64,000 bases of DNA from positions 3,782,753 through 3,846,752 of the forward strand of contig NZ_LT896716.1 of NCBI RefSeq assembly GCF_900187405.1. The letters run 5' to 3'. Numbering within the stretch: the stretch's first letter is position 1; the number at the start of each line of letters is the position of its first letter. Below the pieces are notes generated by a model, which saw nothing but the letters and a program-made list of their open reading frames with translations, did not search any database and was not told the DNA's origin. The stretch comes from Geobacter sp. DSM 9736. GTDB lineage: Bacteria; Desulfobacterota; Desulfuromonadia; Geobacterales; Geobacteraceae. The position numbers and the translations under genes were made by a program. Below are positions 4,819-25,889 of the stretch, one piece after another.

Positions 4819-4896
4819 CTCTCCACCTCCTGAAGGTTTTGACGTGCCCATCCTGTTTCACATCATGGTGCGCTCTCTTCTTTTAATCAGGCTGCC

Positions 4897-7695
4897 TCAC
4901 CACGCTCCTGTCACCGGTACATCACCGTGAATGCCGAAGCCGGTGACAACCGCATCCGCCCCTTCATCCCAGAAGCCATTCCCGTTCATGTCGAGGAACC
5001 AGGTGCCGCCGCGGATAACGCCGATCTTGGTGGTTCCGCCGCCGTTCCAGTCGCCGGTCACCGGCACGTCATCCGGGTTGCCGAAGGAGTAGGCTGCATC
5101 GATGCCGTCGTCCCAGGTGCCGTTTCCATTCATGTCCAGATACCACGTGTTCCCCCGCACTACGCCGATCCTGGTTGTGCCGGTCCCGGTCCAGTCGCCG
5201 GTTATCGGTTTGTCGCCTGGAATGCCGAAGGAATATGAGGCGTCTCCTTCATCCCATCCCCCATTGCCGTTCATGTCCAGATGCCACGCGCCGTTCCTGA
5301 AGACGCCGATCTTTGTGGCCGATCCGCCGTTCCATTTTCCGGTGACGGGGATGTCGGTGGGGATACCGAAGGAGTAGGCGGCATCGATGCCGTCGTCCCA
5401 TGCGCCGTTGCCGTTGATGTCCAGGTACCACGCGCCGCTGCGGAAGACGCCGATTTGGGTGCTAGCGCCGGTCCAGTTACCGGTGACGGGAATGTCGGAG
5501 GGGTTTCCGAACGAGGCGGTGGCATCGGATTCGGATTCCCACGTTCCACTGCGGTTCTTGTCGAGGAACCACTCGCCCTCCCTGAAAACGCCCACGTGGG
5601 CAGCTTGCTGGGGCCGCTGCGGTGTCCACAGCACTGCCCTCTCTCCGTCGGTTCCCGCTATCTGTCCGGAAGCGTTGATGTCTATTGCATGATAATACCC
5701 CCCGAAAAGTGAGGGCAGATAAGAGATGGCGCCCTCTTTCCAGATGAATGCCCGAGACGTTAGAGAAATCCAAGGTTGTTGCCGAATCGACGTGGGGTCA
5801 ACATGTCCACCGTAGCCCAACGACAATGCTCCGATAATTTCTCCGGCATTGTTCATACCCGTAACCGCGCCCACCGTATTGGGGGCGATGGTGCCCAGAT
5901 AGGTCGTCGTTCCGTTGTCCCACAGGAAGGGATAGGTATTCGTAACATCAGTGTAGTTGCCTCCTACCTGCCCCAGATTATTGAAGGCTGTGAGGCAATT
6001 ACCCCTTCCACTTATTGTATCGCTATGGGTGTCGACCCACTGCCCCCCCCTCAGGACATAAGTACGCTCATGGTAAGGAAACGGCCATTTGCCGCACCCG
6101 GCGACATCCCCTCTCTCATTTATGAACACGCTGGTCCAATAGGGGTAAGGTAATGATTGGTGTGGAACGCGTCCCAAATCGGTCATCAAACCGTTAGCCC
6201 AGAGAAAAGAGCGATGTCCGTAGAGTGTATTGCTGTACGTTGTTGATGTACCTACGACCTGACCGGAATTGTTTATGTCGTAAGCTCCGCTGGCTGTATC
6301 TCCATCGAGTGTCTCAAGGTCAGTCATGACCCCTTTCGTCCAGAGAAAGGCATGTATCAGGCCCGTCTCCGTTTCACTCTCACCGACCACCGCCCCGGAG
6401 TCGTTGATGGCACGAGCGGTAGCCGTGGGACCGCCCAGGGTGCCGAGATCGGACAGCGCCCCCTTTTCCCAGAAGTAGGAGCGGCCCCCCCTTGTTCCGA
6501 TCACCTGCCCCGCCTCGTTGACCGCCACCACGTCGAAGGCCCCCATGTCGGTCATGACTCCGTCCTTCCAGAAGAAGGCATGATTCTCACCCGTGGCTGT
6601 GTCGCTCTGCCCTACCACGATCCCTGCGTCGTTGAGGGCGACGGCTGAACTCTTGTTGCCGCCGAGGGTGCCCAGTTCGGTGACGGCATAGGCGAGACTT
6701 ACGTGGTCGAAGAGTGCCGTGGAGAGGGCGGTGTTGTCGTGGCTGGTCACCGCAAGGCCGATGTAGACGGTGCTCGCCATGGTAAGGGTGTCGCTTCCCA
6801 CCAGGACCCAGTTGACCCCGTCTGCCGATGCATAGCCGCTGATGGTGTTTCCGCTTCGTACGAGCCTGACCCAGTGGGGCGCCTCGACGTATGGTCCGGA
6901 GGTGTAGATAGAGGGGGCGCCGGCGGCAAGCCGCCGCTGAAAGATCGCTGTCGAATAACCTGGCTTGATCTCCATCATAGCGTTGGCTGAATCGGCCGCC
7001 AGGGTCTCGCGTATCATGACCCCAGCCTTGGCGTACTCATGTGTCGTATTCTGCAGCGATGCCACTCGTGCGGTAATCTGGCCGTCTCCCGTGAGCGTCT
7101 GGTAGACGTAGCGAAATTCATCGGCGGTTCCCCAGATATCCGCTCCCGACCCTTTGACGGTATGGGTGCCGCCGGCGAAAGCGGCGCTCCCCGGCATGCC
7201 GACGGAGCCGATGTCGCCCGACTGCCACGGGGGAGGCAGGATGTTAAAGGTGACGGGACTGGAGGTAGCGACCCTTCCGGCCGAATCGGTGGCTTTGGCC
7301 GTGAGGGTGTAGCTTTCACTGATGTATGGCTCAAAGGTATAATTAAGTGTGCTGGATGTGCTGATGGTGACGAGCTTCGTGCCGTGGTAAAGCTCCACCC
7401 TGGTTATGGCGGTTCCCGGTTCCGTTGTTGCGGTTGCGGTGACTATCGGAGCGGCGGGAGCGGTGAAAGTCGCGCCATCGATGGGCCTGGTGATGGTTAC
7501 CGTTAGAGGCCCTGATGGTTCTGCATGGACGGGAGGAGTGCCGAGGAGCAGGTTCAGTAGCAGCAGGATCACCAGCACGGTCACGTGGCGGAGCCACGAC
7601 TTGCCGACTCCTGACCCCGACCAGGGGAAGGGCCCTCTGCCGTGAGGATGCTTCTTTACCTTCGGTTCACCACATGTTCCAGCAACTGGGTTCAT
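4897..7695 (-). CDS. Secreted HAF-repeat protein with Ig-like, DUF1349-like and five-repeat C-terminal cassette (copy 2)
   Basis: A 932-residue paralogue of the gene at 2032-4818 with the same architecture: signal peptide, Ig-like domain opening LTVTITRPIDGATFTAPAAP, DUF1349/LamG-like sandwich, HAF repeats and five C-terminal repeats ending GFGIHGDVPVTGAW. Start 7695 is set by AGGAGGTGGAGAG. The last ~260 bp (about 4897-5160) is almost base-for-base identical to the end of the neighbouring protease gene (7774-8040), so cassettes recombine between unrelated genes. The HAF region differs from copy 1 mainly between residues about 500 and 600. No enzymatic motif is visible; a structural or ligand-binding surface role is inferred. 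Confidence 0.85.
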   Translation of the reverse strand: MNPVAGTCGEPKVKKHPHGRGPFPWSGSGVGKSWLRHVTVLVILLLLNLLLGTPPVHAEPSGPLTVTITRPIDGATFTAPAAPIVTATATTEPGTAITRVELYHGTKLVTISTSSTLNYTFEPYISESYTLTAKATDSAGRVATSSPVTFNILPPPWQSGDIGSVGMPGSAAFAGGTHTVKGSGADIWGTADEFRYVYQTLTGDGQITARVASLQNTTHEYAKAGVMIRETLAADSANAMMEIKPGYSTAIFQRRLAAGAPSIYTSGPYVEAPHWVRLVRSGNTISGYASADGVNWVLVGSDTLTMASTVYIGLAVTSHDNTALSTALFDHVSLAYAVTELGTLGGNKSSAVALNDAGIVVGQSDTATGENHAFFWKDGVMTDMGAFDVVAVNEAGQVIGTRGGRSYFWEKGALSDLGTLGGPTATARAINDSGAVVGESETETGLIHAFLWTKGVMTDLETLDGDTASGAYDINNSGQVVGTSTTYSNTLYGHRSFLWANGLMTDLGRVPHQSLPYPYWTSVFINERGDVAGCGKWPFPYHERTYVLRGGQWVDTHSDTISGRGNCLTAFNNLGQVGGNYTDVTNTYPFLWDNGTTTYLGTIAPNTVGAVTGMNNAGEIIGALSLGYGGHVDPTSIRQQPWISLTSRAFIWKEGAISYLPSLFGGYYHAIDINASGQIAGTDGERAVLWTPQRPQQAAHVGVFREGEWFLDKNRSGTWESESDATASFGNPSDIPVTGNWTGASTQIGVFRSGAWYLDINGNGAWDDGIDAAYSFGIPTDIPVTGKWNGGSATKIGVFRNGAWHLDMNGNGGWDEGDASYSFGIPGDKPITGDWTGTGTTRIGVVRGNTWYLDMNGNGTWDDGIDAAYSFGNPDDVPVTGDWNGGGTTKIGVIRGGTWFLDMNGNGFWDEGADAVVTGFGIHGDVPVTGAW

Positions 7696-7773
7696 CTCTC
7701 CACCTCCTGAAGGTTTTGACGTGCCCATCCTGTTTCACATCATGGTGCGCTCTCTTCTTTTAATCAGGCTGCC

Positions 7774-9840
7774 TCACCACGCTCCTGTCACCGGTACATC
7801 ACCGTGAATGCCGAAGCCGGTGACAACCGCACCCGCCCCTTCATCCCAGAAGCCATTCCCGTTCATGTCGAGGAACCAGGTGCCGCCGCGGATAACGCCG
7901 ATCTTGGTGGTTCCGCCGCCGTTCCAGTCGCCGGTCACCGGCACGTCATCCGGGTTGCCGAAGGTGTAGGCTGCATCGATGCCGTCGTCCCAGCTGCCGT
8001 TTCCATTCATGTCCAGAAACCAGGTGTTGCCACGCACGACGCCGATTCTGGTCGTGCCGGTCCCGGTCCAGTCGCCGGTTACGGGCTTGTCGCCGGGGAT
8101 GCCGAAATAACGGGAGGCATCCTGAATGTCCCACGTGCCGTTGCCGTTCATGTCCAGGTACCACGCGCCGTTCCTGAAGACACCGATCTTTGTGGCCGAT
8201 CCGCCGTTCCATTTTCCGGTGACGGGGATGTCGGTGGGGATACCGAAGGAGTAGGCGTCGTCGATGCCGTCCTCCCACGCGCCGTTGCCGTTCATGTCGA
8301 GGTACCAGGCGCCGCTTCGGAAGACGCCGATCTGTGTGCCGGCGCCGGTCCAGCTTCCGGCGACGGGAATGTCTCCAGGGTTTCCGAACGAGAAGGATGA
8401 GTCAGCTCCGGCGTCCCATGTACGGGTTCCGTTCAGGTCAAGATGCCATCGACCTCCCCGGAAAACCCCGATCCGGTCGTTGGCGCGCAATCGGTTGTAG
8501 GCGGCGGGGACGTTCAGGCTACCGTATCCGTAGGCATTGTCGGGGCCGAAGACGCCGACATCGCCGGCGGAATCTCGAAAAGCGGCTTCTATCACTGATG
8601 CGTCGAGATCGGGAAACGCCTGAATGAGGAGAGCCATGGCTCCTGCGGCATGTGGGGCGGCGAAGGATGTGCCGGAAACGGTGGCGTAGGCTCCGGGTAT
8701 GCCGAAGTCAAGGTCTGTGGTGAGGATGTCCACTCCCGGTGCGACGACCACCGGCGAAATGCCGCCGCCGCATGCAGACGGGCCCCGGCTGCTGAAGCTC
8801 GCGACCGTGCCGGTGCTGTCGACGGCTCCGACCGAGAAGGCGGAGGAATAATCGGCGGGGCTGACGATGGTTGATGGAAATGGTCCGTCATTGCCCGCGG
8901 CGAAGGTCATGGCGATTCCGGCTGCCTTCAGGATTTCTATGTCCGGATGAAACTCCGTAATGCAGCCGTAGGTGTTTTCGATCCCCCAGGAGTTGTTGAC
9001 CACATCGGGAGCATCGTCGGTGTCTGGGTTGCCGTCCGGGTCGAGCAGCCATTGGAAACCGCGATGCACGGAGCTGTAGGAGGCGGCGCCGGCGTCGTTG
9101 AAGATCTTGACAGCTATCCACCTGGCGCCGGGAGCGACGCCGATGGAGCTTCCTCCCGCGTCTCCCCCCACCATGATCCCCATGGTCTTTGTCCCATGGC
9201 CGTCCCGATCGGCGGGGGAGTCGTGCTCCTGGTTCGGGTCGAACCAGCTGTTGGTGCCGCCGCGCCATCTGTCCCGCAAGTCCGGATGTGATGCATCCAC
9301 CCCCGAATCCATGTTGGCAACTACGACACCCTCGCCGGTATAGCCGAGATTCCACAGTTCGGGCGCTCCGACCGCCGCGATGTTCCATTCGGGAGATGCG
9401 GGATTGCTGTAGACCGTCTTCGGCATGGGGATCGAGGCATCGAGGATTATGCTTTCCACCTGGGGGAGCTGTGCGAGTTCCTGAATTAACTGGGCATTCG
9501 CGGTGAGTGCGACTCCGTTGACGAGCCAGAGTGGGCGGACCTTTCTTATCTTCTTCTTGTCCAGGAAGTTCCGTATCTCTCGCTGAGATGCGTCCGCAAC
9601 CCTCCTGAGAGCTCTGATGATCTTCGACCGGCGTGTACGCTTGTCTCGGTCACGGATGCTGTCTACCCGGGCCTTCCCCGTTGCCCTGACGATGATGGGA
9701 AATTCATGCTGCGATCCGGTTTCCATGACCTCCACGACCCGGGGGTCCAGATTGCCCGCTCCGGCAGGGCCGACTCCCGCCATGCAGAAGAGAATGACGA
9801 GGGGAAAGAATATTGGGTAGCGCTTTATCCTTCTCTTCAC
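7774..9840 (-). CDS. Subtilisin-family (S8) secreted serine protease with five-repeat C-terminal cassette
   Basis: A 688-residue exported protease. The GTG start at 9840 follows GGGGGAG and leads into a signal peptide (hydrophobic run FFPLVILFCMAGVGPAGAG). An inhibitor-I9-like propeptide spans about residues 35-140. The catalytic triad is visible: Asp in NMDSGVDASHPDL (about 175), His in DGHGTKTMGI (about 213) and Ser in SGTSFAAPHAAGAM (about 393), plus the oxyanion Asn in FAAGNDGP (about 317). Residues about 455-688 are the five-repeat cassette, ending PVTGAW. It lies between the HAF genes and a lipoprotein gene in the leftward cluster. A role in maturing or turning over the co-encoded surface proteins is plausible but inferred; specificity cannot be read from the sequence. 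Confidence 0.92.
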   Translation of the reverse strand: MKRRIKRYPIFFPLVILFCMAGVGPAGAGNLDPRVVEVMETGSQHEFPIIVRATGKARVDSIRDRDKRTRRSKIIRALRRVADASQREIRNFLDKKKIRKVRPLWLVNGVALTANAQLIQELAQLPQVESIILDASIPMPKTVYSNPASPEWNIAAVGAPELWNLGYTGEGVVVANMDSGVDASHPDLRDRWRGGTNSWFDPNQEHDSPADRDGHGTKTMGIMVGGDAGGSSIGVAPGARWIAVKIFNDAGAASYSSVHRGFQWLLDPDGNPDTDDAPDVVNNSWGIENTYGCITEFHPDIEILKAAGIAMTFAAGNDGPFPSTIVSPADYSSAFSVGAVDSTGTVASFSSRGPSACGGGISPVVVAPGVDILTTDLDFGIPGAYATVSGTSFAAPHAAGAMALLIQAFPDLDASVIEAAFRDSAGDVGVFGPDNAYGYGSLNVPAAYNRLRANDRIGVFRGGRWHLDLNGTRTWDAGADSSFSFGNPGDIPVAGSWTGAGTQIGVFRSGAWYLDMNGNGAWEDGIDDAYSFGIPTDIPVTGKWNGGSATKIGVFRNGAWYLDMNGNGTWDIQDASRYFGIPGDKPVTGDWTGTGTTRIGVVRGNTWFLDMNGNGSWDDGIDAAYTFGNPDDVPVTGDWNGGGTTKIGVIRGGTWFLDMNGNGFWDEGAGAVVTGFGIHGDVPVTGAW

Positions 9841-9870
9841 AACATTCTCCCCCCGGAAGTGTTGCGGCGG

Positions 9871-10323
9871 CTACTGCACGGTGATGTTCTCCGCCCTGAA
9901 GTCGCCGATGACCACCGAGACCTTGTTCCCCTTCTTCACGTAGCCTCCGGGGTTGGCGAACATGACGAAATAGTTGCGTTCTGGTTGGGGAGGGCGGGTG
10001 CTTCGCAGGGCGCCGACCTTCGGGGGCTCCGGAACGGCGAAGACGGCGCCGGTGGCCTCATCCACGAGGTAGGGTTTAAGCTTCCTGTCGAAGAGGGGCT
10101 TCGCTTTCTCCGGGTCGAGCACCCGGTAGCGGAAGTCGAGCATGTAGCCCCCCGCCGACTGCTTGAGGCTCAGCACTTTTACTCCCCACTTTTCCTCGAT
10201 GGATGATTCCTGCCGTGAGAGATCCGAGGAGGGAGGGGGGGCGGGTCGCGTCGTGGCGCAGCCCGTTGCCGAAGCGATGCATAATGCGAAGATGGAAATG
10301 GAAACGAACGATCTGTAAAACAT
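9871..10323 (-). CDS. Putative lipoprotein of unknown function
   Basis: A 150-residue protein whose N-terminus (MFYRSFVSISIFALCIASATGC) is a lipoprotein signal with Cys near residue 22. Gly follows Thr before the Cys (ATGC), which fits the lipobox loosely. GGAGAGG precedes the ATG. After a Pro-rich linker comes a mixed alpha/beta region containing EKWGVKVLSLKQSAGGYMLD and RNYFVMFANPGGYVKKGNKV, without a motif I can assign. It ends 30 bp before the protease start and is probably co-transcribed with it. It could be an envelope partner of the exported proteins; this is inference from position only. Confidence 0.75.
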   Translation of the reverse strand: MFYRSFVSISIFALCIASATGCATTRPAPPPSSDLSRQESSIEEKWGVKVLSLKQSAGGYMLDFRYRVLDPEKAKPLFDRKLKPYLVDEATGAVFAVPEPPKVGALRSTRPPQPERNYFVMFANPGGYVKKGNKVSVVIGDFRAENITVQ

Positions 10324-10535: not shown

Positions 10536-12269
10536 CTACCAGCGGCCGGCTACAGGAACGTCCGTCGGTATGCCGAATTCGGGAAACACGCCGTCGATCC
10601 CATCGTCCCAGGCGCCATTGCCGTTCAGGTCGAGAAACCAGGTGCTGCCGCGCACGACCCCGATCCTGGTGACGCCGGTGCCGGTCCAGTCGCCAGTGAC
10701 GGGTTTGTCTGACGGAATGCCAAAGGAATAGACGCCATCGACTCCCTCATCCCAATAACCATTGCCGTTCAGGTCGAGAAACCAGGTATTCCCGCGGATT
10801 ACGCCGATGTAGGTAGTTCCGCTGCCGGTCCAGTCGCCGGTAACCGGTTTATCGCCCGGATTACCGAACTGGGTGATAAAATCCGTTCCATCCTCCCAGA
10901 TTCCGTTGCCGTTCGTATCGAGAAGCCATTGTCCGGAGCGAAACACCCCTATCCTTGCCGTTCCTGCTCCGGTCCAGTCCCCGGCGACGGGAATGTCTCC
11001 TGTAGTCCCGAACGTATAGGCTGCATCGATTCCGGGGTCCCATTGCCTGTTACCGTTCACGTCAAGAAACCATTGATTTCCTCCCCGAACGATGCCGACT
11101 TTTTTGGTTCCGCTGCCGTTCCAGTCCCCGATGACTGGCTGGTCTCCTGTCAGACCGAACCAGAAACCGGTATCGCCTGCATCCCAAGCCCCGTTGCCGT
11201 TCACGTCAATGAACCACTCGCCGTTGCGGAATACGCCTATGGACTCGGCCGATTCCGGGGGCACAACGAGAGAGGCGATCAACCCGCCGGGATAACTTGC
11301 CCCGTTTGTCAATGAGAGCTTGCGGTCATACAGCGGATAGGTTCCGTAACGGGAGGATGTCATGAGAGCATCGCTGGTTTTTGCCGGAGGGAGAAGCACC
11401 GAATAACCTTTTCGGACATGGCCGTACGGACTGCCGTCCTCGGCGATTACCGACAGGTTAAGCCCCTGTACGAGCGGCACGTGTGTCTTGAGGCCAGCGT
11501 TCAGGAATCGCAACAGGGTCGTCTGACCTGGAATCCCAGCCGGTATCGGCGCATTCCCCGGATACGGCTGACCGTTTATCAAAAAATATTTCGGTTCATA
11601 GTCGATAGTACTGGTAATGCCCGCTGGTGGCTCCGTGCCGTATGTGCCGGCGGCTACGTGTCCGTGAAGCACCGGATCGATTTCGCTGAATACCAGGAGT
11701 GCTTCGGCATCAAAGGCACTGGCCGGCCCGTAGGCTTGGCCGGCCGCGGCGTTTTTGATGACAGCGCCGTACAGTCCCATCTGAACCTGGACGGCCGGAT
11801 GTGTGCCACTTTGGTAGAGGTAGGTGCCGGGCCTGAGACTGGGCCATGAATAGGTGTTGGTCGTACTGTTATCGGGTGGTGTCTCTGTAGTAAAGGACTT
11901 CACCCGTTGACGGCCTTCCCCGTCGGTAAACTTTACGGGAGCCATCGTGGCTCTTTGCCCGGGAATCACTATGGAAACAGGCTCGACCAAAGGCCCGGTC
12001 AATGCGTTCCTCAGATGAACCGTGAGGGCGGCATCGGTCGGCGGCACGGACAGCACCGGCCCCGGAGACGTTGGAGCGCCGCAACTGCTGTAGGTGCCGT
12101 CGGTGCACTGGGCGAAGCCCCACATGGTAACAACCGAGCTGTCCGGCATGGTCTTGGTGAATGTCTGCGCCCGTAACCAGTACTCGGCGCCAATTGAAAT
12201 CCCGCTTGATCCCAGCAAGGCGGCCACTCCCAAAAGGAAAGCCGGGACGGTCTTTTTCAGAGTGTTCAT
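10536..12269 (-). CDS. Cupredoxin-fold protein without copper ligands, with five-repeat C-terminal cassette
   Basis: A 577-residue exported protein. Start 12269 is preferred over the ATG two codons upstream because GGAGG lies 7 nt before it. A signal peptide ends near GISIGA/EY. Residues about 30-335 resemble two multicopper-oxidase cupredoxin domains (SPGPVLSVPPTDAALTVHLR; TYLYQSGTHPAVQVQMGLYG). The positions that normally hold HxHG and HxH copper ligands read VSIVIPG and YQSGTHP, so no trinuclear or type-1 site is evident. Residues about 340-577 are the five-repeat cassette, ending PVAGRW. It lies directly downstream of two ligand-bearing cupredoxin genes. It is likely a non-catalytic structural or partner subunit. 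Confidence 0.75.
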   Translation of the reverse strand: MNTLKKTVPAFLLGVAALLGSSGISIGAEYWLRAQTFTKTMPDSSVVTMWGFAQCTDGTYSSCGAPTSPGPVLSVPPTDAALTVHLRNALTGPLVEPVSIVIPGQRATMAPVKFTDGEGRQRVKSFTTETPPDNSTTNTYSWPSLRPGTYLYQSGTHPAVQVQMGLYGAVIKNAAAGQAYGPASAFDAEALLVFSEIDPVLHGHVAAGTYGTEPPAGITSTIDYEPKYFLINGQPYPGNAPIPAGIPGQTTLLRFLNAGLKTHVPLVQGLNLSVIAEDGSPYGHVRKGYSVLLPPAKTSDALMTSSRYGTYPLYDRKLSLTNGASYPGGLIASLVVPPESAESIGVFRNGEWFIDVNGNGAWDAGDTGFWFGLTGDQPVIGDWNGSGTKKVGIVRGGNQWFLDVNGNRQWDPGIDAAYTFGTTGDIPVAGDWTGAGTARIGVFRSGQWLLDTNGNGIWEDGTDFITQFGNPGDKPVTGDWTGSGTTYIGVIRGNTWFLDLNGNGYWDEGVDGVYSFGIPSDKPVTGDWTGTGVTRIGVVRGSTWFLDLNGNGAWDDGIDGVFPEFGIPTDVPVAGRW

Positions 12270-12352
12270 TGTCATTCCTCCTCACATTGGCACTTTGTCG
12301 CCCACTTTCAGGGACGGCGACGAATGGCTGTTTTCCAATGATTTGAAACCAA

Positions 12353-12371
12353 GGTTGTTTTTTCAACAACC
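12353..12371 (-). terminator. Short GGTTGTT/AACAACC hairpin after the second oxidase gene
   Basis: A perfect 7-bp stem (GGTTGTT / AACAACC) with a 5-nt loop lies 1 bp past the stop of the gene at 12373-13728. These are exactly the outer ends of the ~120-bp repeat with the middle missing, so it looks like a collapsed copy. A decayed half-copy may lie just beyond (about 12311-12340). Confidence 0.5.
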
Positions 12372-12372
12372 G

Positions 12373-13728
12373 CTAGTGCCCCATTAACATTACCCCTGGA
12401 GCCTCCACCACCATCATCGTCATCAGCCCGCCGGGAAAGATGTCGTTGTTGGTAATTTCCTTTTCCGCATGGGAATGCAACATGAAGAAAAAGCCGCCGT
12501 TCGGATTGAACCCACCCTGCCCCGGAGGGAGAGCGCCAAGCGCGCCGAGGAACGGGCTGCCGCCCCAGTGCTGGCCGAAGGTCAGTTCCTTTACATCCGG
12601 AAGTTCCACAGGGAAAGGTTTTCCATGATCGGGGCAGTACTCATGGGTGGCATCGTCGAAATTGTCGCCGTCCGTATCGTTGCATGTGGCGTCATGGCAG
12701 TGCATCGCCATCGCCATGCCGTCGGCCATGCCGTCGTTATCGGCATCCGTACAGTTGGTGTTGATCGGGCCATAGACGTCCCACCCCAGCTTCTCGCCCG
12801 TCCAGGTGAAGATTGCATCGGCAGTCTGTCCGGGTACCACGGTAGTGGTGAAAGCCCACTCGGCAAGATCAGCTCCTGCACCTGTCGAGAGAAGCCGCCC
12901 GTCTCTTGCGATGACCCTGTGGTGATTACCGTGGGTATGAAGGGGATGCAGGTCCCGTCCCGCTCCGATCATCCGCATCAGAGCCTTCTCGCCGGGGTGC
13001 GTCATCGGCATGCAGTTGTACGGCTGATGAGGCAGCAGCGGGTCGTAAGCCATGCTCATCGTATCCGGCGACGTACGGCCGTTGATGAACCAGTACACTG
13101 GAAAAAAAGTCGAGGTGTCGACCTCGGCCATTCTCCCGGCGGCAACCATTTCGTGGATCCGGGGATCCATTTCGGTAAGGAGGAACAAGTATTCCTGGTC
13201 ATAAGCGCTGCTCGGGTCGTTGTAGGCAATCCTGTTCATGTGCTCGTCGAACCCGGTGGGCCGCACGATCAACGCGCCGACCAGCCCCATCTCGATCTGA
13301 AGGTCCGAATTGGTTCCACTGTAATAGGTATAGGTTCCTGCTTCGGAAGCGGTAAACCGATACGTCACCTTTCCCCCTCCGGCGGCAGCCTCACGGGTAA
13401 GGACGCCGGGAACGCCACCCGATGCCACTACGCCGCTTTGACCGGGGAAGACGGCGGAGACGGGAACGGACAGGGTGTTGGTCAGAGTGACCGTTACCGT
13501 ATCACCCTGATTCACAATCAAGGTCGGTCCGGGATATTGCATGAGGCCATCGCCGTTGGCGTAGCCCCACATCAGATAATTGCCCCCTTCGCCGGTGCTG
13601 ATGTAGCCGGACTTGGCGGTAAGATTGAATGTGGGCCCGGTTATCCCGTCGACGGTGGCCAGTGCGGGAAAGCAGGCGCACAGAACCACCAGGGCGGATA
13701 GCAGTAATATGTGCATAATTTTTTTCAT
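12373..13728 (-). CDS. Multicopper-oxidase-like protein with only C-terminal-domain copper ligands
   Basis: A 451-residue exported cupredoxin protein starting MKKIMHILLLSALVVLCACF after TAGGGGGTAACT. The second domain has LHPLHTHGNHH (about residues 256-266), the HPxHxHG trinuclear motif. Near the C-terminus LHSHAEKEITNN (about 417-428) sits where oxidases have HCHxxxH; Ser replaces the type-1 Cys. The first domain lacks both HxH motifs (AVFPGQS and YTYYSGTNSDLQIEMG). An insertion at about 318-362 carries Asp/Asn-rich calcium-type loops (DADNDGMADG, NDTDGDNFDD). Alone it should not hold a complete copper cluster. The adjacent upstream gene has the opposite pattern. There is no five-repeat cassette. 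Confidence 0.82.
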   Translation of the reverse strand: MKKIMHILLLSALVVLCACFPALATVDGITGPTFNLTAKSGYISTGEGGNYLMWGYANGDGLMQYPGPTLIVNQGDTVTVTLTNTLSVPVSAVFPGQSGVVASGGVPGVLTREAAAGGGKVTYRFTASEAGTYTYYSGTNSDLQIEMGLVGALIVRPTGFDEHMNRIAYNDPSSAYDQEYLFLLTEMDPRIHEMVAAGRMAEVDTSTFFPVYWFINGRTSPDTMSMAYDPLLPHQPYNCMPMTHPGEKALMRMIGAGRDLHPLHTHGNHHRVIARDGRLLSTGAGADLAEWAFTTTVVPGQTADAIFTWTGEKLGWDVYGPINTNCTDADNDGMADGMAMAMHCHDATCNDTDGDNFDDATHEYCPDHGKPFPVELPDVKELTFGQHWGGSPFLGALGALPPGQGGFNPNGGFFFMLHSHAEKEITNNDIFPGGLMTMMVVEAPGVMLMGH

Positions 13729-13757
13729 AGTTACCCCCTAAAAAGTGCTCTGCCAAA

Positions 13758-13880
13758 AGGTTGTTCAAAAACATTCAGATCGTCGCACCCGCAGGAGTGC
13801 ACGCGGAGGCGTAGCAGCGCTACGCCGCACAAGCAAACGACGAAGACGGCGGCGAGATCGACCGTTTTTTCAACAACCGC
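13758..13880 (-). repeat. ~120-bp structured 3-prime repeat, copy 2
   Basis: Same element as at 10411-10528: outer arms AGGTTGTTCAAAAAC and TTTTTTCAACAACC, inner palindrome GGAGGCGTAGCAGCGCTACGCC. It begins 2 bp after the stop of the gene at 13882-15057 and has the same orientation relative to that gene as the other copies. Confidence 0.8.
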
Positions 13881-13881
13881 C

Positions 13882-15057
13882 TTAGAGAAGTTCGATTTCC
13901 GTCATCATTCCGCCATAATCCTCCTCATTGTTGCTCAGATTATGGATGTCGGTGGCGTACAGGAAGTATGTCCCCGGTGCGATCCCTGCTGTATCGAGAA
14001 TGACGTCGCAAGCCTGACCTCCGCCAAGGGTGACGGAATTGGTCGTGTAGGAAAGATTCTCGCCGGCCGTGCTGCGCAAAATACGCGCGTCTTTACCGAC
14101 GACCTTCATCGGAATACCAAGAACGGACAAGGTATAGAAATCAACCGTCGCCAGGCTGGAGAGGCGCAGCAGTATCTTCTGGCCCCGCACCGCGGTTATT
14201 TTCGACGAAACCCTCTGCGAAACCTTGCCGCCGTTTTCCGCAGGCGCAGGCAGCGGGGCCGGGTTTACCGTGTCAGGGTACCCACGGCCGTTCAGCATGG
14301 GATAATTGTCTTTCATCATGGCGAACGGAAGCGGCTGAACGGCGATGTGCTTGTCATGGAAATTGGAATCGAAACCATGGATCTGGATGGGAAAGTCTAC
14401 GTCGTAGCAGGTTGAGCCGTCTCCGTCGTTATAGGCATACTTACGTGAGGCGCACCCGCCGACCAATGTGCCGTCCTGCAGCGGCGTAACGTACAGGTTG
14501 CCCAGCATACCCATCTGCATGTGCTCGGTTGCTTCCACGTGACAGTGATACAGGTAGGTGCCCGGTTCAGGGGCGCGGTAATAGTAGGTCAGGCTGGACC
14601 CCATATTGATGGCTATGGAGCCCATCGGTTCGCCGTCGAATACGGGAGCCGCGTTGGCAAAACCGTGCCAGTGGACCGTATGTGGATCGAACAGGTCCGG
14701 ACGCATCATCATCCCCACATTGGTAAGCGTCAGGTAGACAATGTTCCCCTCCCGGACCTTGATTGTAGGCGCGGGAAATTCCCCAGCCAGCATGCCATGC
14801 ATCATGACCATGTCTTCCGGCAATCCGGTAACGTTCGAGAAACCGAACATGTACTGTGGATGTCCGTCCGCCATGGTTATGAAACCGTCCCCCGCCGCCA
14901 GATGGATGCAATCCGTATTGGGAGGCCGTACCTCGGACCCGGTCCACTGGGCGTCTCCGTTGGTATCCCCCGGGCACTGGACTTTGACCGATGCATGGGA
15001 CACGGAGTAGAGCAGCATGGATATGAAAAGAAATATGTTGATGACCTTGAATCGCAT
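13882..15057 (-). CDS. Two-domain multicopper-oxidase-like protein with only N-terminal-domain copper ligands
   Basis: A 391-residue exported protein with signal peptide MRFKVINIFLFISMLLYSVS, preceded by AGAGGTG. Domain 1 has HTVHWHGF (about residues 125-132) and YHCHVEATEHMQMGM (about 168-183). These supply two trinuclear His pairs plus type-1 Cys, His and Met, as in two-domain oxidases whose type-1 copper is in the first domain. Domain 2 (about 200-391) lacks the expected HPxHxHG and HxH; the C-terminal region reads ATDIHNLSNNEEDYGG. A mature trinuclear centre would need ligands from another chain. The next gene downstream encodes the missing half-set. No five-repeat cassette is present. 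Export and cupredoxin fold are secure; activity is uncertain. Confidence 0.85.
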   Translation of the reverse strand: MRFKVINIFLFISMLLYSVSHASVKVQCPGDTNGDAQWTGSEVRPPNTDCIHLAAGDGFITMADGHPQYMFGFSNVTGLPEDMVMMHGMLAGEFPAPTIKVREGNIVYLTLTNVGMMMRPDLFDPHTVHWHGFANAAPVFDGEPMGSIAINMGSSLTYYYRAPEPGTYLYHCHVEATEHMQMGMLGNLYVTPLQDGTLVGGCASRKYAYNDGDGSTCYDVDFPIQIHGFDSNFHDKHIAVQPLPFAMMKDNYPMLNGRGYPDTVNPAPLPAPAENGGKVSQRVSSKITAVRGQKILLRLSSLATVDFYTLSVLGIPMKVVGKDARILRSTAGENLSYTTNSVTLGGGQACDVILDTAGIAPGTYFLYATDIHNLSNNEEDYGGMMTEIELL

Positions 15058-15143: not shown

Positions 15144-18100
15144 CTACCACTTGCCCGTAACGGGAAGGTCTCCCGGGATACCGAATCCGGATATCGTCTG
15201 GTCGGTTCCGTCCCACCCGCCGTTGCCGTTCATGTCCAGGAACCAGGTGCCGCCGCCACGGACGACGCCAATCTTGCTTATGCCGTTTCCGGTCCAGTCG
15301 CCGGTAACCGGCACGTCACCCGGAATACCGAATGAATATGCCGCATCGATGCTGTTATCCCAGACGCCGTTGCCGTTCATGTCGAGGAACCATGTGTTGC
15401 CGCGGACAACGCCGATCTTCGTCGTACCGTTGCCGGTCCAGTCTCCGGTGATCGGCTTGTCGCTCGGAATGCCAAAAGAGTAAACAGCATCTACACCCTG
15501 GTCCCAGGCTCCGTTGCCGTTCATGTCGAGGAACCAGGTATTGCCGCGGACAACGCCGATCTTCGTCGTGCCGCCGCCGTTCCAATCGCCGGTCACCGGC
15601 CTGTCGCCGGCAACGCCGAAGGAGAAGGTGCTGTCGGTACCTGCATCGAGGAAGCCGTTATTGTTGCTGTCCAGGTACCAGGTGCCGTTCCTGAAGACTC
15701 CGGCCTTGAAGGTCCCGCTGCCGGTCCAGTCCCCGGAAACGGGCTGGTCGCCCGGCATGCCGAAGACAAAGGTTCTGTCGCCGGCGTCCCAGGTACCGTT
15801 CTTGTTCTGATCGAGGAACCATTCTGCGTTACGGACCGCACCGATTCCCGTAACCGGGCCGGCAGGTACCGTAGCCGTGTACATCTCGTCGGCACCTATG
15901 TCGGGTCCCGCTCCATTCGGGCGATTTTCTCCGTCGTAATCCGTTGCCGGCGCCGCTGCGGCGCTAGCCGCGTCAACGGCGGAGGATGCAGCCCTGATAT
16001 GGTAGTCTCCCGCCGTCTCGGTCAGTGGCGTGAAACGGACCGTGATGGCATTGCCCCCTTCGTCGATGACGGCGGCAATAACTATCTGGTTGAAATAACT
16101 GTTGACGAATGCCGGGTTGCCGGCGGTGTTACCGTTACCCGTGTAGTTTGCGCCATCGCCAGGGGTGAGGCTGGTAAGCAGGCAGTTGCTCGGATTCAAA
16201 AAAGTCGGGACACCCGTAACGCTGAGGTCCCACACCGGCATGGCCGGGTTCGGCAGCAGGCCGCCGACGCCATTGTTGGTGGTGTAGAAGGAGCGGTTGT
16301 TACGCACGATGTTGTTAACCAGCACGGGATCCGAGAATGTCTGGCCGCTGGCCGCAGCGATACCGGTCGCCCCGGTGCTGTGGGCATTGGAGACTATTCC
16401 CGCCCCTTGCGGGGTCGAGGTCGTAGCTCCCGCCCCGAATGCGTTTGCCGCCGTCGCCGTGCTGTCGTTGTCGGCGATCGTGTTGTTGACGATCCGTACC
16501 CTTGCCGCATCCTGCAGGCCAATGCCGCCTGCTGCGAATCCGGCCACATTGTTGACGATCATGTTGTTTTCGATGATAAGCTGATACCAGGCTGCCGGGT
16601 TGCCGGGCGCTGCGAGTACATCCTGCCCGTTCACCGCAAAGGCTCTGATGCCGCCCCCTGTACCGACGCCCGCCAGGTTGCCCTGGATCAGGTTTGAACG
16701 AATGGCGACGTTGCCGGCCCCGGCCGACGCTGCGCCCGGAACCTGCTCACCGCCGACAAATATGCCGGCGCCTTCGCCAAATGCCGCGCCACCGAAGGCG
16801 ACCTCGTTGAACGTGATCCTGTTGTCGGCGATGAGGCCGTTGTTGCTGAGACCCGTGTGGGCAACGCCGCCGCCGTTGAAGCGCGAAAAGTTGCCGCTGA
16901 TGAGGTTGTCCGTTACGGCATACCCGGTTGAACCGGAATAGATGGCAATACCGCCGCCACCCTGAACGCCGCCGTTCTTGGTTATTTCGTTGTTGCGAAT
17001 GGTGATGTTCGGGTTGTTCGAAACTCGCTGGGGCATGCCGATGGCGATGCCGCCGCCGAAATTCCCCTGGTTGCCCGTCAACCTGTTATTGCTGATGGTC
17101 AGCCCGGTTACGTTGTCATCCACGTAGATGCCGCCACCCATAATGGCGCCGAAAACCTTGAAGCCGTCGATAAGAGTGGGATTGCTGAAGCCGGGAGCGG
17201 TCCCCAACACCATTATTCCCGGAGCTTCATTGGCCAGGAAGGGGTCGGTCCCCAGGATGCTCAGGATCTTGTCATGCCATGCGCTGAGCTTGTTGGCCGG
17301 AGATGGATTTGCGTAAATGATGGTCGAACCGGCTCCGCTCCCCTGAAGCTTGACGTTTTTGTACAGAATGACGTTCTCGCTGTACGTGCCGGGAGGTACG
17401 ATGATCAGATCGCCGCTTGCAGCCGTATCCACCGTGTTCTGGATTGCATTGGGCGAACCCGGGACGACTTGTCTCACGCCGGTACAGCTGGCCACAACAT
17501 GAAGTGTCACCCCTATCTCAGTGGCATTCCCGTTATCACCACGGACAACGATGAGCGTTCCGGTCGCAAGGCCTGCGGGGACCGTGGCGCTGATGGAGGC
17601 ATCACTCCAGGCGGTAACCGGAAGCGGCACACCGTTCAGGGTCACCGAGCCCTGTACCGAGCCGAAACCGTAATCCCTGGTAACCGTTGCTGGACTGCCC
17701 GGAATGTTCGGATCGAAGTCGGGATTCGGCACTGCAGTCAATCCCAACGACGTGATGGTGATGTTGCGCGTGCTGCCGCAGACTACTGGGCCGGTGAGAG
17801 ATCCGGTCACACTGGCTATGACGGGAACCAGCGTGGCAGGCTCGACATCTGGTCCTGCCTGCGGGAAACCGGTAAAGGAAGCAACCGGGACGAGAGGCGT
17901 ATCCAGGTACGTAGTCTTCCCTGACCAGTAATCGAAGGTCCACGGAGTGACGCTGTAGCGGGGATCGTAGAACGGGTCGATGGTGCCGTCCGGCATGATC
18001 GGGTGATTGAGTACGGCGGTGATCATGTTAGGAGACATGCCGGCGGGAATTGCCGCGTTCGCCGTGAATGTCGAGGGTAGCAGCGCGTTGTAGGAACCCC

Positions 18101-20687
18101 ACTCGTCCGTATAGACACGCGCCACTTCGTTACCCTGCCAATCCTGCATAGATACGGGAAGCCACGCAGGAGACGTTTTCTCGCCGAAAACCGGGCTGCC
18201 GGCATTGAATTCTGCCGCCAGGTCATTATTGCAGAAACCGACCACACGGGCAGCTTTGGGCACCTCGGTAAACATGAAGAAATCGGCAGCAGTATTCTGT
18301 GTCGGCTGAACGGTTACCTGCTTCATGGAGCAGAGCGGTGTCACCGACCCGGCAAGGGGAGGATCGATCGCAACCTGCTGGTCGAACAGGGTAAGCCAGT
18401 TGGGAACGACATGGTCAAACCCGGTATTTTCAATCGTGCCGACGCAGACGGCCGGGAGTAACAGCTGGCTCGGCCGGAACTCGTCGCCAAAATCAACGTT
18501 CTTGTCTTCCTCTTTTACGGTCTCGTATCCGGACGGTGTGACCGCTTCCACAATATACGTCCCCGGGTCAAGTGCACCGCCTGCCGGTGATCCGAAAGCG
18601 TAACCGCCATCGAACACACCAGGACGCACCTGGTTCCAGGTTCCATAGTTGTCGTAGCAGGGCTGCACGCCCGCTATCGGCGGCAGATCCTGAACGCAAC
18701 CGGTCGGTTTGTTGTCGTCCCAGCTGTCGGTGGTAGCCAGTTCGATGGCGTCTCCCAGACTGAAATTGGTGCCGTCACCGCTGCGAACTACGTCTTCAGG
18801 GCCTTTCGGGGCGGTATTGTCGGACCAGCCGAAAGGATAGTTGTCCACATCACATAGCTGCACTCCTGCTACGCCGTTCAGGTCATCTATGATCCCATTG
18901 GCATCGGTGTCCCTGTAGAGACAGACCTGGACCCTGGGGATGCCGGGGCACCAGGGCTCACCTGCTGCCATCCGGGGGTCATTTTCGGCACGGGTCACAT
19001 CATAGAACACGATGCCGCTGATACCGCCGTTCTCGTTCAGCTGGTAGTTGACCTTGCCCCAATCGATGACATTGGTCTGGTTGAGAAACAGGTGCATCGC
19101 CTGGGTCAGAACCGGTCCCGTTTCCGTGCGCGACAGATCGTTGCCCGTATTCGGGTTTACCATAACCTGGGGCTGAGGATTCAGGGCTCCGAAAGACGGA
19201 ACTATCCAGCCGCTTGCAGGAGGAATCTGCCCGCCGTAATCAACCGCAGCAGTCATGCCGGTCGGCTTGAACCGCAGATAATCGACCTCGGCAACAAGCC
19301 ATTTGAAAAAGGGAAAAACCTCTTCGAGGGAATATTCACCTCCCGGAACCGTCGTCGTAGCCTGGTACACCGAGCCGTCCCTGAACCGGAGGTTAACTGC
19401 CTGATTCGCTATTCCCTGCTCTCCTTCATCACGGAACCCGTTCTGATTCACATCGAAAAATACTGATCCCTTCAAAGTTCCGAACCACCGGAACGACATC
19501 ACGTTGCCGAGGTCGATCGTGCCAGCGCCAGCCGGAACGGTGACGGTGTTGAAGCCGAACAGGGCATCGAGAGGCCGGTCCCACGTCACGAGCTGGTAAG
19601 TTCCCGGAGGAACGTTCTCGATGGTGAAATTGCTCTCTCCGTCACAGGGCACGGCTATCAACCCTTTGTTGACGGCAGCGAGATTGTTTAGACCGACCCA
19701 GCAACCCGATACCGGCGGCCCCTCGAAAAACCCCTGATTCGTCGGAGGGCGACCGAAGTGATTGAAAATGTTGCGCCCCTTGATCGTCGCCCCTCCCGGG
19801 CCTTGTCCGGCCCATGGGAGCTCCTCCGGCTTTACGAATCCGATGAACACGTGATTGAAGCCGGTGCCGAACCCCTCGATGAAAAGGGGTGGTTCATTCG
19901 CCTTAACCCATGCGTCGATGCCTGGGGTCCCTTCGATGGTGGAGGTCTGGGTCCACCCCGCAGCGTCCCCCGGTGGCACAGCCCTGATGCCGTACTTGCC
20001 GGGAACAAGATTTTTGATGAAGGCCTGACCATTGGCATCGGTGAGAATGACGCCGGTTCCCATTACATCCACACTGGAGCAATCGCTGGCGCTATAGGTT
20101 GTCCCGAGGGGATTGCCGCACGCATCCTGGGACATCTGCCCGCCAAGGTCGAAAATCTTGATTGAAGCGCCTGCAATCCCTTCTTCTCCCGCATCGGGGG
20201 TGTTGTTGATCGGGTTATGGTCCTTGAATATGAAGATGGAGACCTGGGCGGTCGGCAGAGGGTTCTGGTGGACTTTGACCGTAACTGCCGAGGCACCTGC
20301 TCCAACCATTGTCCCGCTTATGCTGAAGCCGGCGTCAGGGAGGACAGAGAGGAAGTAGCGCTTATTTGAGTCAGGCACGGTTATGCTTGTGCTTCCTCCG
20401 GCTGCATTCCCCTTGGCGACGACTGGAGCATGGCTGTTATGGATGTCGAGGCCGATGCTGTCTCCCACCCGTACGCCCGGAGGCGACTGGTTAGTGTTAT
20501 CCTCTTCCAGCAGCCATCTGAAGCCGCTTACGGGGAGATTGCAGTTGTTGGCGGAGTCGCAACCGACCACATTCACCGTGAAGGCGTAGAGGTCGGTCTG
20601 TAGAGCGAGCCCCGCCAACAGCGTTACGCAGGTTGCAAAGAACCGGCGAAATCTGCTTCGAGAAGCCCTGCAGGTGTTTCTTCTCAT
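15144..20687 (-). CDS. Giant surface protein: SdrB/Cna-B-like, IPT/TIG and parallel beta-helix domains with five-repeat C-terminal cassette
   Basis: A 1,847-residue exported protein starting MRRNTCRASRSRFRRFFATC after GGAGGAG. Two or more SdrD-B/Cna-B-like modules lie at about 140-300 and 400-500 (GSVFFDVNQNGFRDEGEQG) and again near 565-700 (GISGIVFYDV, YRDTDANGIIDDL). An IPT/TIG-like Ig domain is at about 985-1085. From about 1095 to 1560 is a right-handed beta-helix (PNAIQNTVDTAASGDLIIVP, then many NNxIxxN rungs), as in pectate-lyase-like adhesins. Residues about 1612-1847 are the five-repeat cassette, ending PVTGKW. It is the first gene of the leftward cluster. Cys-rich loops in the middle may be disulphide-linked. 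It is probably a scaffold or adhesin; no catalytic motif was recognised. Confidence 0.88.
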   Translation of the reverse strand: MRRNTCRASRSRFRRFFATCVTLLAGLALQTDLYAFTVNVVGCDSANNCNLPVSGFRWLLEEDNTNQSPPGVRVGDSIGLDIHNSHAPVVAKGNAAGGSTSITVPDSNKRYFLSVLPDAGFSISGTMVGAGASAVTVKVHQNPLPTAQVSIFIFKDHNPINNTPDAGEEGIAGASIKIFDLGGQMSQDACGNPLGTTYSASDCSSVDVMGTGVILTDANGQAFIKNLVPGKYGIRAVPPGDAAGWTQTSTIEGTPGIDAWVKANEPPLFIEGFGTGFNHVFIGFVKPEELPWAGQGPGGATIKGRNIFNHFGRPPTNQGFFEGPPVSGCWVGLNNLAAVNKGLIAVPCDGESNFTIENVPPGTYQLVTWDRPLDALFGFNTVTVPAGAGTIDLGNVMSFRWFGTLKGSVFFDVNQNGFRDEGEQGIANQAVNLRFRDGSVYQATTTVPGGEYSLEEVFPFFKWLVAEVDYLRFKPTGMTAAVDYGGQIPPASGWIVPSFGALNPQPQVMVNPNTGNDLSRTETGPVLTQAMHLFLNQTNVIDWGKVNYQLNENGGISGIVFYDVTRAENDPRMAAGEPWCPGIPRVQVCLYRDTDANGIIDDLNGVAGVQLCDVDNYPFGWSDNTAPKGPEDVVRSGDGTNFSLGDAIELATTDSWDDNKPTGCVQDLPPIAGVQPCYDNYGTWNQVRPGVFDGGYAFGSPAGGALDPGTYIVEAVTPSGYETVKEEDKNVDFGDEFRPSQLLLPAVCVGTIENTGFDHVVPNWLTLFDQQVAIDPPLAGSVTPLCSMKQVTVQPTQNTAADFFMFTEVPKAARVVGFCNNDLAAEFNAGSPVFGEKTSPAWLPVSMQDWQGNEVARVYTDEWGSYNALLPSTFTANAAIPAGMSPNMITAVLNHPIMPDGTIDPFYDPRYSVTPWTFDYWSGKTTYLDTPLVPVASFTGFPQAGPDVEPATLVPVIASVTGSLTGPVVCGSTRNITITSLGLTAVPNPDFDPNIPGSPATVTRDYGFGSVQGSVTLNGVPLPVTAWSDASISATVPAGLATGTLIVVRGDNGNATEIGVTLHVVASCTGVRQVVPGSPNAIQNTVDTAASGDLIIVPPGTYSENVILYKNVKLQGSGAGSTIIYANPSPANKLSAWHDKILSILGTDPFLANEAPGIMVLGTAPGFSNPTLIDGFKVFGAIMGGGIYVDDNVTGLTISNNRLTGNQGNFGGGIAIGMPQRVSNNPNITIRNNEITKNGGVQGGGGIAIYSGSTGYAVTDNLISGNFSRFNGGGVAHTGLSNNGLIADNRITFNEVAFGGAAFGEGAGIFVGGEQVPGAASAGAGNVAIRSNLIQGNLAGVGTGGGIRAFAVNGQDVLAAPGNPAAWYQLIIENNMIVNNVAGFAAGGIGLQDAARVRIVNNTIADNDSTATAANAFGAGATTSTPQGAGIVSNAHSTGATGIAAASGQTFSDPVLVNNIVRNNRSFYTTNNGVGGLLPNPAMPVWDLSVTGVPTFLNPSNCLLTSLTPGDGANYTGNGNTAGNPAFVNSYFNQIVIAAVIDEGGNAITVRFTPLTETAGDYHIRAASSAVDAASAAAAPATDYDGENRPNGAGPDIGADEMYTATVPAGPVTGIGAVRNAEWFLDQNKNGTWDAGDRTFVFGMPGDQPVSGDWTGSGTFKAGVFRNGTWYLDSNNNGFLDAGTDSTFSFGVAGDRPVTGDWNGGGTTKIGVVRGNTWFLDMNGNGAWDQGVDAVYSFGIPSDKPITGDWTGNGTTKIGVVRGNTWFLDMNGNGVWDNSIDAAYSFGIPGDVPVTGDWTGNGISKIGVVRGGGTWFLDMNGNGGWDGTDQTISGFGIPGDLPVTGKW

Positions 20688-20768: not shown

Positions 20769-20796
20769 ATTATAGACATGGTTGAGCCGGTGTCAA
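20769..20796 (-). promoter_or_regulatory. Consensus sigma-70 promoter for the leftward secretome cluster
   Basis: On the minus strand TTGACA (20796-20791) and TATAAT (20774-20769) are separated by 16 bp; both hexamers match consensus exactly. The predicted start near 20762 leaves a leader of about 75 nt before the ATG at 20687. The whole 20688-21071 interval is a divergent AT-rich control region and contains no convincing gene. Confidence 0.65.
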
Positions 20797-21760: not shown

Positions 21761-21794
21761 AGAAGACTTGAGTCAAATATTCCAAGGAGGAACT

Positions 21795-24700: not shown

Positions 24701-25889
24701 GGGCTTCTCCCAGATCAACATCACCGATGGAGGCGCCCTGACCCCACCGGCCACTAACCAGATGACCAACTTCGGGTGGGAGTTCGTCTGGCACTGCCAT
24801 ATTCTGAGCCATGAAGAGAACGACATGATGCGGTCGCTTGCGCTGGCGATAGCTCCCGATGCGCCTTCGAACCTTGCCGCCATCATGTCCGGAGATCCGC
24901 TGCGGTCAAATCTGAGGTGGACGGACAATTCCAAGAATGAAACCCACTGGACAGTTCAGAGAGCACCTTCAACAGTCGGCCCCTGGACCACTATCGCCGT
25001 CGTGCCGTCTGCTACGGGAGCGACGACGGGGGGCATTGCGGCATACGCCGATACCACGATAGCCCCGGCTACCGGCTATTACTACCGGGTTATCGCCTCC
25101 AACATCGTCGGAAGCACCATCACCAGCTACTCCACTACCACTGCCGATTCGGCACCCAGCAACATCGCAGCCGCCGGACCACCGATCTCCGGTATCGGCG
25201 TCTTCCGCAGCGGCACCTGGCATCTCGACCTGAACAAGAACGGTTCCTGGGATGCGACCGACAGAACCTTCCTGTTCGGTGCCGCGGGTGACAGGCCTGT
25301 CACCGGAGATTGGAGCGGTGACGGTGCGTTCAAGGCCGGCTTCTTCCGTGCGGGCATCTGGACCCTGGATGCGAACAACAGCGGGATCTTCGATCAGGGA
25401 GACAGGACGTTCAGCTTCGGGATTGCAGGGGACAAGCCCGTAACAGGGGACTGGAACGGCACCGGAACGACGAAAGTCGGTACCGTACGCGGCAATACGT
25501 GGTTCCTCGACATGAACGGCAACGGTACGTGGGATGCCGGCGATGCCACATATTCTTTCGGTATACCGACAGACATTCCGGTGACCGGAGACTGGACCGG
25601 CAGCGGTACGACAAAAATCGGTGCCGTACGGGGCAATACGTGGTTCCTCGACATGAACGGCAACGGTACGTGGGATGCCGGTGATGCTACTTACTCTTTC
25701 GGCATACCGACAGATATTCCCGTGACCGGAGACTGGACCGGCACCGGACGGACCAGAATCGGCGTCGTTCGCGGCGGCTCCACCTGGTACCTGGATATTA
25801 ACGGCAACGGTGCCTGGGATAACAGCACCGATGCGGTGGTATCGGGTTTCGGTATCTCCGGAGATATTCCGGTGACCGGGGTCTGGTAG
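21795..25889 (+). CDS. Large multicopper oxidase with FN3 domain and five-repeat C-terminal cassette
   Basis: A 1,364-residue exported enzyme. Start 21795 follows AAGGAGGAACT. All four copper motifs are present: [13 protein letters not shown] (about residue 197), [11 protein letters not shown] (about 281), [11 protein letters not shown] (about 893) and [14 protein letters not shown] (about 997). Type-1, type-2 and type-3 sites should therefore be complete. The spacing and [14 protein letters not shown] are CotA/bilirubin-oxidase-like and also resemble outer-surface oxidases of Geobacter. Between motifs 2 and 3 (about 497-580) are two Gly-rich repeats ([19 protein letters not shown]). An FN3-like domain follows at about 1012-1125, then five cassette repeats to the end (PVTGVW). 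Likely substrates are Mn(II), Fe(II), Cu(I) or phenolics; the sequence cannot choose between them. Confidence 0.92.

Follow-up and report, generated by a model that had tools for sequence, protein, structure and literature searches.

Neighbouring two-domain cupredoxin genes appear to encode a shared oxygen-reducing copper enzyme in many bacteria

Three tandem genes, all on the minus strand of a 64,000-nucleotide stretch of Geobacter sp. DSM 9736 (contig NZ_LT896716.1, positions 3,782,753 to 3,846,752; hereafter the window), appear to specify a single oxygen-reducing copper enzyme that many bacteria assemble from neighbouring genes. We propose, with a probability of roughly 80%, that their products A (13882-15057), B (12373-13728) and C (10536-12275) assemble as distinct subunits into a single multicopper oxidase, secreted or on the surface, that follows the plan of the two-domain homotrimers and holds one active interface. 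In type C two-domain oxidases, the first cupredoxin domain (D1) of a chain carries the type-1 copper and four of the trinuclear histidines, and the second domain (D2) of the neighbouring chain provides the other four. Such two-domain enzymes are homotrimers with the active site at the interface of two monomers, according to PMC3192119. From the evidence below we infer a 1:1:1 stoichiometry for A, B and C, a ring closed by C, and oxidase activity.

The case rests above all on how the copper ligands are divided. A (391 residues, with a Sec-type signal) matches Pfam Cu-oxidase_3 and Cu-oxidase_2, and all of its ligands lie in D1, in a stretch at 14506-14682 (minus strand) that runs from PHTVHWHG (H126-H131) to HCHVEATEHMQMGM (H171-M184): H126, C172, H179 and M184 make up the type-1 site, and H129, H131, H171 and H173 half of the trinuclear set. 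The equivalent positions of its D2, VDFYTLSVLG and YFLYATDIHN, are without an HxH pair. B (451 residues, Cu-oxidase_3) is arranged the other way round, with a ligand-free D1 (VPVSAVFPGQ and YTYYSGTNSDLQIEMG) and four trinuclear histidines in D2, namely H264 and H266 (LHPLHTHG) and H418 and H420 (HSH), within 12469-12948 on the minus strand; a further conserved histidine in the first of these motifs, H261, has its equivalent in the Nitrosomonas europaea blue copper oxidase 3g5w (VHAIHTHG). Thus neither chain holds both halves of the ligand set, as a type C two-domain oxidase would, and the full complement of eight trinuclear histidines and one type-1 set (His, Cys, His, Met) is reached by A and B jointly and by neither singly. 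This complementary loss, and the exact count, had been proposed in an initial annotation made from the sequence of the window, and both hold. C (579 residues) consists of a cupredoxin pair over residues ~1-340, both domains of which lack an HxH motif, followed by a surface repeat tail of ~235 residues. Taken together the three proteins hold six cupredoxin domains, yet stop codons and start sites separate the genes and the domains are not in one chain. In B, the D2 also bears an insert at residues ~321-370 (window ~12620-12770), rich in Asp and in Cys/His and variable in length (CTDADNDG...HCHDATCNDTDGD), that resembles a calcium-binding loop.

Profile searches place A and B firmly among the copper oxidases, with Cu-oxidase_3 scores of 58.6 and 53.8 bits against a Pfam gathering cut-off of 21, and C weakly so (Cu-oxidase, 21.9 bits against a cut-off of 21). 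All three fall far under the cut-offs of the named NCBIfam oxidases (CueO, CopA, laccase, ascorbase and copper nitrite reductase); copper_res_A, for example, scores 49 bits against a curated cut-off of 479. Among solved structures, those closest to A and to B are two-domain oxidases, namely 3g5w and the metagenomic two-domain laccase 2zwn.

The three genes travel together. Among 297 genomes of the same phylum, strong matches to A (E < 1e-90) and strong matches to B (E < 1e-50) fall in an identical set of 13, which carry 14 cassettes (one genome has two), each an A-B-C tandem on a single strand. For a broader sample, a scan with the A alignment, limited to one genome per species, returned 253 relatives, of which the best 80 are referred to here as the named loci. 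When all hits are used, with no score floor, B directly follows A in 80/80 named loci and C follows B in 76/80; in the other four (L086, L138, L148 and L152), the contig stops in or just past B. We looked for either gene standing alone with the same ligand losses, the observation that the initial annotation had set as refuting its idea, and found no such case in the 297 own-phylum genomes or the 80 named loci. The carriers are diverse: Nitrospirae, Desulfobulbaceae and other deltaproteobacteria, Thiobacillus, Gallionellaceae, Sulfuricella, Methylocaldum, Thioploca, Amphritea, Myxococcota, Acidobacteria, Planctomycetes, Hydrogenedentes and others. Across these many phyla the proteins retain full-length frames at median identities of 44-58%. 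Inter-locus distances are also correlated between them (A-B 0.66, A-C 0.61 and B-C 0.63 over 74 loci, against 0.23 for the best of 500 permutations), and therefore the cassette moves as one block. A-B-C is a conserved unit. Both listed genomes of the window's own family lack the cassette in searches with A and with B, which suggests its horizontal transfer; among viral contigs, a search for B gave 23 pattern matches and no relative.

The ligand partition is just as constant. All eight A ligands are unchanged in 94/94 aligned rows, made up of the window, the 80 named loci and the 13 own-phylum cassettes (two loci, L100 and L132, probably enter the count a second time, as their contigs look identical to own-phylum ones). 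Among the 93 B rows, H261, H264 and H266 are kept in 92/92 ungapped rows and H418 and H420 in 88/88; the gapped rows we read as cut or broken frames. Bit-score floors of 500, 250 and 200 were applied to A, B and C in this alignment, which retained B from 79/80 and C from 73/80 named loci. The second domain of A and the first domain of B are ligand-free in every aligned row, and in C lone histidines persist (H159 in 73/87 rows, H265 in 53/87) while the motifs are gone. Because the ligands of A and B are invariant across the aligned rows, their partition is not due to chance.

Structural models agree with a shared site. At loci where the genes share a reading frame, A, B and C (or A and B) were folded with AlphaFold2 as one read-through chain, stops being read as glycine, from alignments of at most 99 rows; a 150-row alignment placed B and C rows wrongly and was dropped. 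The six-domain A-B-C read-through of locus L085 (1158 residues) reached a predicted local distance difference test score (pLDDT) of 87.0 and a predicted template modelling score (pTM) of 0.88, and the window's A+B read-through (895 residues) 84.5 and 0.83. Each chain has two cupredoxin domains in these models, which the 3g5w/2zwn type matches with Z scores of 28-31. In superpositions by VIA-align, the single-chain three-domain oxidase 6vow (409 residues) covers 381 residues of the L085 model at 2.9 Å, over model range 23-828 (B ends at 836), and 374 residues of the window A+B model at 2.7 Å, over range 45-885. Since three domains are fitted as a rigid body, and the range opens in the first domain of A and closes in the second domain of B, each superposition must take in both of these domains. 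In three-domain oxidases, domains 1 and 3 hold the trinuclear cluster between them. The first domain of A and the second domain of B are thus predicted, with or without C, to be placed like that copper-binding pair. The idea of a hetero-oligomer with inter-chain clusters, advanced in the initial annotation, gains support from these two models and from the obligate A-B pairing. That A and B belong together has stood; the unit, however, is one of three genes, the ligand-free C having been missed.

How would such an enzyme work? In the plan of the two-domain oxidases, each trinuclear copper site is formed jointly by D1 of a chain and D2 of its neighbour. The sole active interface would be that of A.D1 with B.D2, with the type-1 copper and four histidines coming from A and four histidines from B; electrons taken from the substrate would reach the type-1 copper of A first and travel through its His-Cys-His motif to the shared cluster, where O2 would be reduced to water. 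In a ring of three, this pairing leaves B.D1 facing C.D2 and C.D1 facing A.D2, and all four of these domains are ligand-free, exactly as expected; the two interfaces would have lost their ligands and persist as structural contacts. C probably closes the ring, and offers a simple account of how a ring with one active site could be closed. Indeed, the A-B-C ring is a better explanation of the dead domains than an AB pair. The tree joins C to B as its sister (98/91), which fits a duplicate of B that moved into a second B position.

Comparison with known systems helps to place this arrangement. Fold and motifs resemble those of 3g5w and 2zwn, with the type-1 ligands and HCH in D1 and HxxHxH and HxH in D2. 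In that type, however, one gene suffices for the homotrimer (PMC3192119) and all interfaces are active, whereas A and B hold different halves, C holds none, and one of three interfaces can be active. The copper nitrite reductase NirK (4kns, 3wia) has a similar two-domain trimer fold (Z 26-28), but its site is a mononuclear type-2 copper, while the HCH and HxH pairs kept in A and B belong to a trinuclear one. Ceruloplasmin, hephaestin and factors V/VIII are built of six cupredoxin domains and have retained one trinuclear site while losing the others, and in ceruloplasmin this site lies between domains 1 and 6 (PMC3600357). With the interfaces paired as we infer, the ligands counted in the three proteins give the same pattern, one trinuclear site being kept and the remaining interfaces ligand-free; the ceruloplasmin group, however, is one fused chain, whereas A, B and C are three, and it is A.D1 that carries the blue copper. 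A bacterial six-domain oxidase of the MnxG type (9bxa), found among the Foldseek matches, likewise has six domains and one trinuclear site. One further structure, 9cck, was considered as a heteromer for its chains of two lengths and set aside, as its title describes a single Nitrosopumilus oxidase that has an additional cupredoxin domain. We found no report of the A-B-C trio in the open-access literature, the search having excluded subscription journals and preprints; open-access matches for heteromeric or split oxidase names all came through 'heterodimeric laccase' and were, by title, on fungal laccase and related subjects.

A second, diverged pair of genes repeats the partition. It lies elsewhere in the same genome (G000:C1:379717-382934; L080:6717-8261 and 8603-9934, plus strand), in the order B2-A2, and nine further pairs were read in seven other genomes (L161-L169). 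In all ten, A2 keeps His 163, 166, 168, 206, 208 and 214 and Cys 207, and B2 keeps His 267, 269, 342 and 344, plus 272, so that the A/B division of ligands recurs in 10/10 pairs. A2 and B2 each have 16 matches, side by side in the same 9/297 genomes. A Tat (twin-arginine translocation) motif is present on B2 in 9/9 complete N-termini, and A2 shows no hydrophobic signal in any of the ten, even with the most upstream start. As A2 is signal-less and its ligands need the Tat-exported partner, these data are best explained if A2 is exported folded, in complex with B2; such a hitchhiker export route is known for hydrogenases. Beside these pairs we observed, as separate matters, a MauG-type di-haem peroxidase gene after the pair at L080, and a gene adjoining the pair at L169 (1409-6832, minus strand) for a large multicopper-oxidase-like protein of 1807 residues (FHLHSH, FHCHFYP). 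In a tree of 11 sequences each of A, B and C, nine of the ten second-family (type II) pairs and nine intact oxidases, A, B, C, A2 and B2 form one clade each, A joins A2, and B/C joins B2 (98/91, 98/93). This topology speaks for a single ancient duplication with complementary loss after it, although long branches and the shared loss itself could attract A to A2 and B/C to B2.

The neighbourhood of the cassette suggests a cell-surface enzyme, given its giant, lipoprotein-like and subtilase neighbours and the matches of the tail of C to tails on neighbouring proteins. Upstream of A lies a gene for a giant protein of 1847 residues (15144-20687, minus strand) with SdrD_B, SpaA and right-handed beta helix domains and a repeat tail, presumably a surface protein; related giant open reading frames stand upstream in 63/80 named loci, as a conserved partner of the cassette. 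In L127, L139, L140, L158 and L159, the open frame of A extends thousands of bases upstream, and looks like a natural A-giant fusion. Directly after C is a gene for a small protein (9871-10323, minus strand; 150 residues) with a lipoprotein-like N-terminus (ASATGC) and no Pfam or NCBIfam match, relatives of which occur in 35-37/80 named loci, and then one for a subtilase (peptidase S8; 7774-9840, minus strand; 688 residues) with the same repeat tail as C. Clustered subtilase-type relatives occur in 41/80 named loci, and Pfam confirmed S8 in L095. A gene for a SCO1/SenC-like copper chaperone and one for a c-type cytochrome stand beside the cassette in 12-16 loci (L093, L095, L104, L113, L129 and others; checked with Pfam in L129 and L093), with SCO1/SenC-type genes in 12/80 named loci.

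Six window proteins (2032-4851, 4897-7728, 7774-9840, 10536-12275, 15144-20687 and 21768-25889) share a tail of ~235 residues made of ~47-residue repeats (IGVxRxGxWFLDxNGNGxWD), ~60% identical to the copy on C. The last of them, on the plus strand and divergent from the giant gene, is an intact multicopper oxidase of the three-domain type (1373 residues). Where the tail of C is at least 60 residues long, it matches a neighbour's tail in 21/50 loci, most often that of the giant or the subtilase; the tail family varies by lineage, and is dockerin-like in L096, L115 and L145. The shared tail is likely a surface or export module. As for shorter elements, a promoter-like TTGACA-16-TATAAT site (20769-20796, minus strand) lies just upstream of the giant gene and fits the consensus at 12/12 positions, a consensus match only, since promoter-like sites overall are no more numerous than in shuffles. 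Between A and B lies a dispersed repeat of ~125 bp (13758-13882, minus strand), with 44 matches in its own genome, itself included, which has the look of a miniature inverted-repeat transposable element; a short related stem stands between B and C (12353-12371). The repeat search gave no inverted repeats between A and B.

Several observations weigh against the heterotrimer that we favour. Joined chains force A, B and C to lie near one another in the models, ~5/97 alignment rows span all three proteins, and VIA-align yields ranges and not residue pairs. By Foldseek, 6vow fits the A+B model poorly (template modelling (TM) score 0.55, root-mean-square deviation (rmsd) 17.2 Å), unlike the result with VIA-align, which we prefer on our own reading that an alignment in chain order can pull in the first domain of B. 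Foldseek also fails to superpose ceruloplasmin, in chain order, on either model (TM 0.21-0.26, rmsd 16-34 Å; for L085, 0.21 and 34 Å, in long alignments that we do not take as support). Had AlphaFold merely copied the ceruloplasmin chain, the models should superpose on it, and they do not; the mismatch would be expected for a ring that runs against gene order, as the ligands pair A.D1 with B.D2, and other arrangements would fit it as well. Lastly, no C-like gene stands beside the second-family pairs that were read, which means that not every case calls for a third gene; those pairs may be ABB or another mix. Could A and B then share the copper site with C outside the ring, as an AB dimer, A3B3 or some other mix, C being an operon anchor or chaperone? 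The sufficiency of two genes in the second family speaks for this, as do the long, lineage-specific surface tails that C often bears and shares with the giant or the subtilase. However, C retains a whole two-domain cupredoxin body, comes after B in every locus whose contig extends far enough, and groups with B in the tree, as expected if it took the second B position; moreover, A and B taken in turn cannot complete a ring with an odd number of places, and a two-domain trimer must have a third member. We therefore regard a place for C outside the ring as unlikely.

Much less probable still is that A and B are separate degenerate proteins in homotrimers of their own, A as a blue-copper electron carrier and B as a metal binder, that are neighbours through shared regulation only. 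Each does fold alone as a two-domain unit, and A has a complete type-1 site, but the four trinuclear histidines of A and the four of B, kept without exception in complete rows, are useless without the other half, and strong A matches never occur without B in the 297 genomes. A few broken B frames in draft metagenome-assembled genomes (L142, L152 and L103) could hint at pseudogenes or assembly artefacts, one two-domain gene having been broken and duplicated; this idea, to which we give next to no credence, is already refuted by conservation, that is, by full-length frames and invariant ligands in many phyla at the identities given above, and the window itself sits on a single 3.96 Mb contig.

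A fuller version of the heterotrimer, to which we would give even odds, is that A, B and C form an obligate complex with one inter-chain site and two dead interfaces, a ceruloplasmin-like loss of sites reached without gene fusion. Its ancestor would be a two-gene ABB enzyme, kept today in the Tat-exported second-family pairs, and C a duplicate of B that filled the second B position, with a freed surface and a tail that could dock the enzyme on the giant surface protein.

A three-gene heteromeric oxidase among the two-domain multicopper oxidases is, to our minds, the better description of this cassette. If true, the catalytic cluster of this multicopper oxidase would form only where two different gene products come together, and the ring would include a third, ligand-free paralogue. 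Ceruloplasmin and the clotting factors, for which a loss of copper sites has been proposed, would then have a counterpart made of several chains, and the passage from homotrimer to heterotrimer could be tested on a concrete example. Annotation of one protein at a time (as multicopper oxidase type 3 and the like) would moreover be misleading for the A, B and C genes in hundreds of genomes, since each gene taken singly looks like a broken enzyme. Genera that cycle sulfur, methane and metals are among the relatives, so it would be well worth finding out what this apparent surface oxidase acts on.

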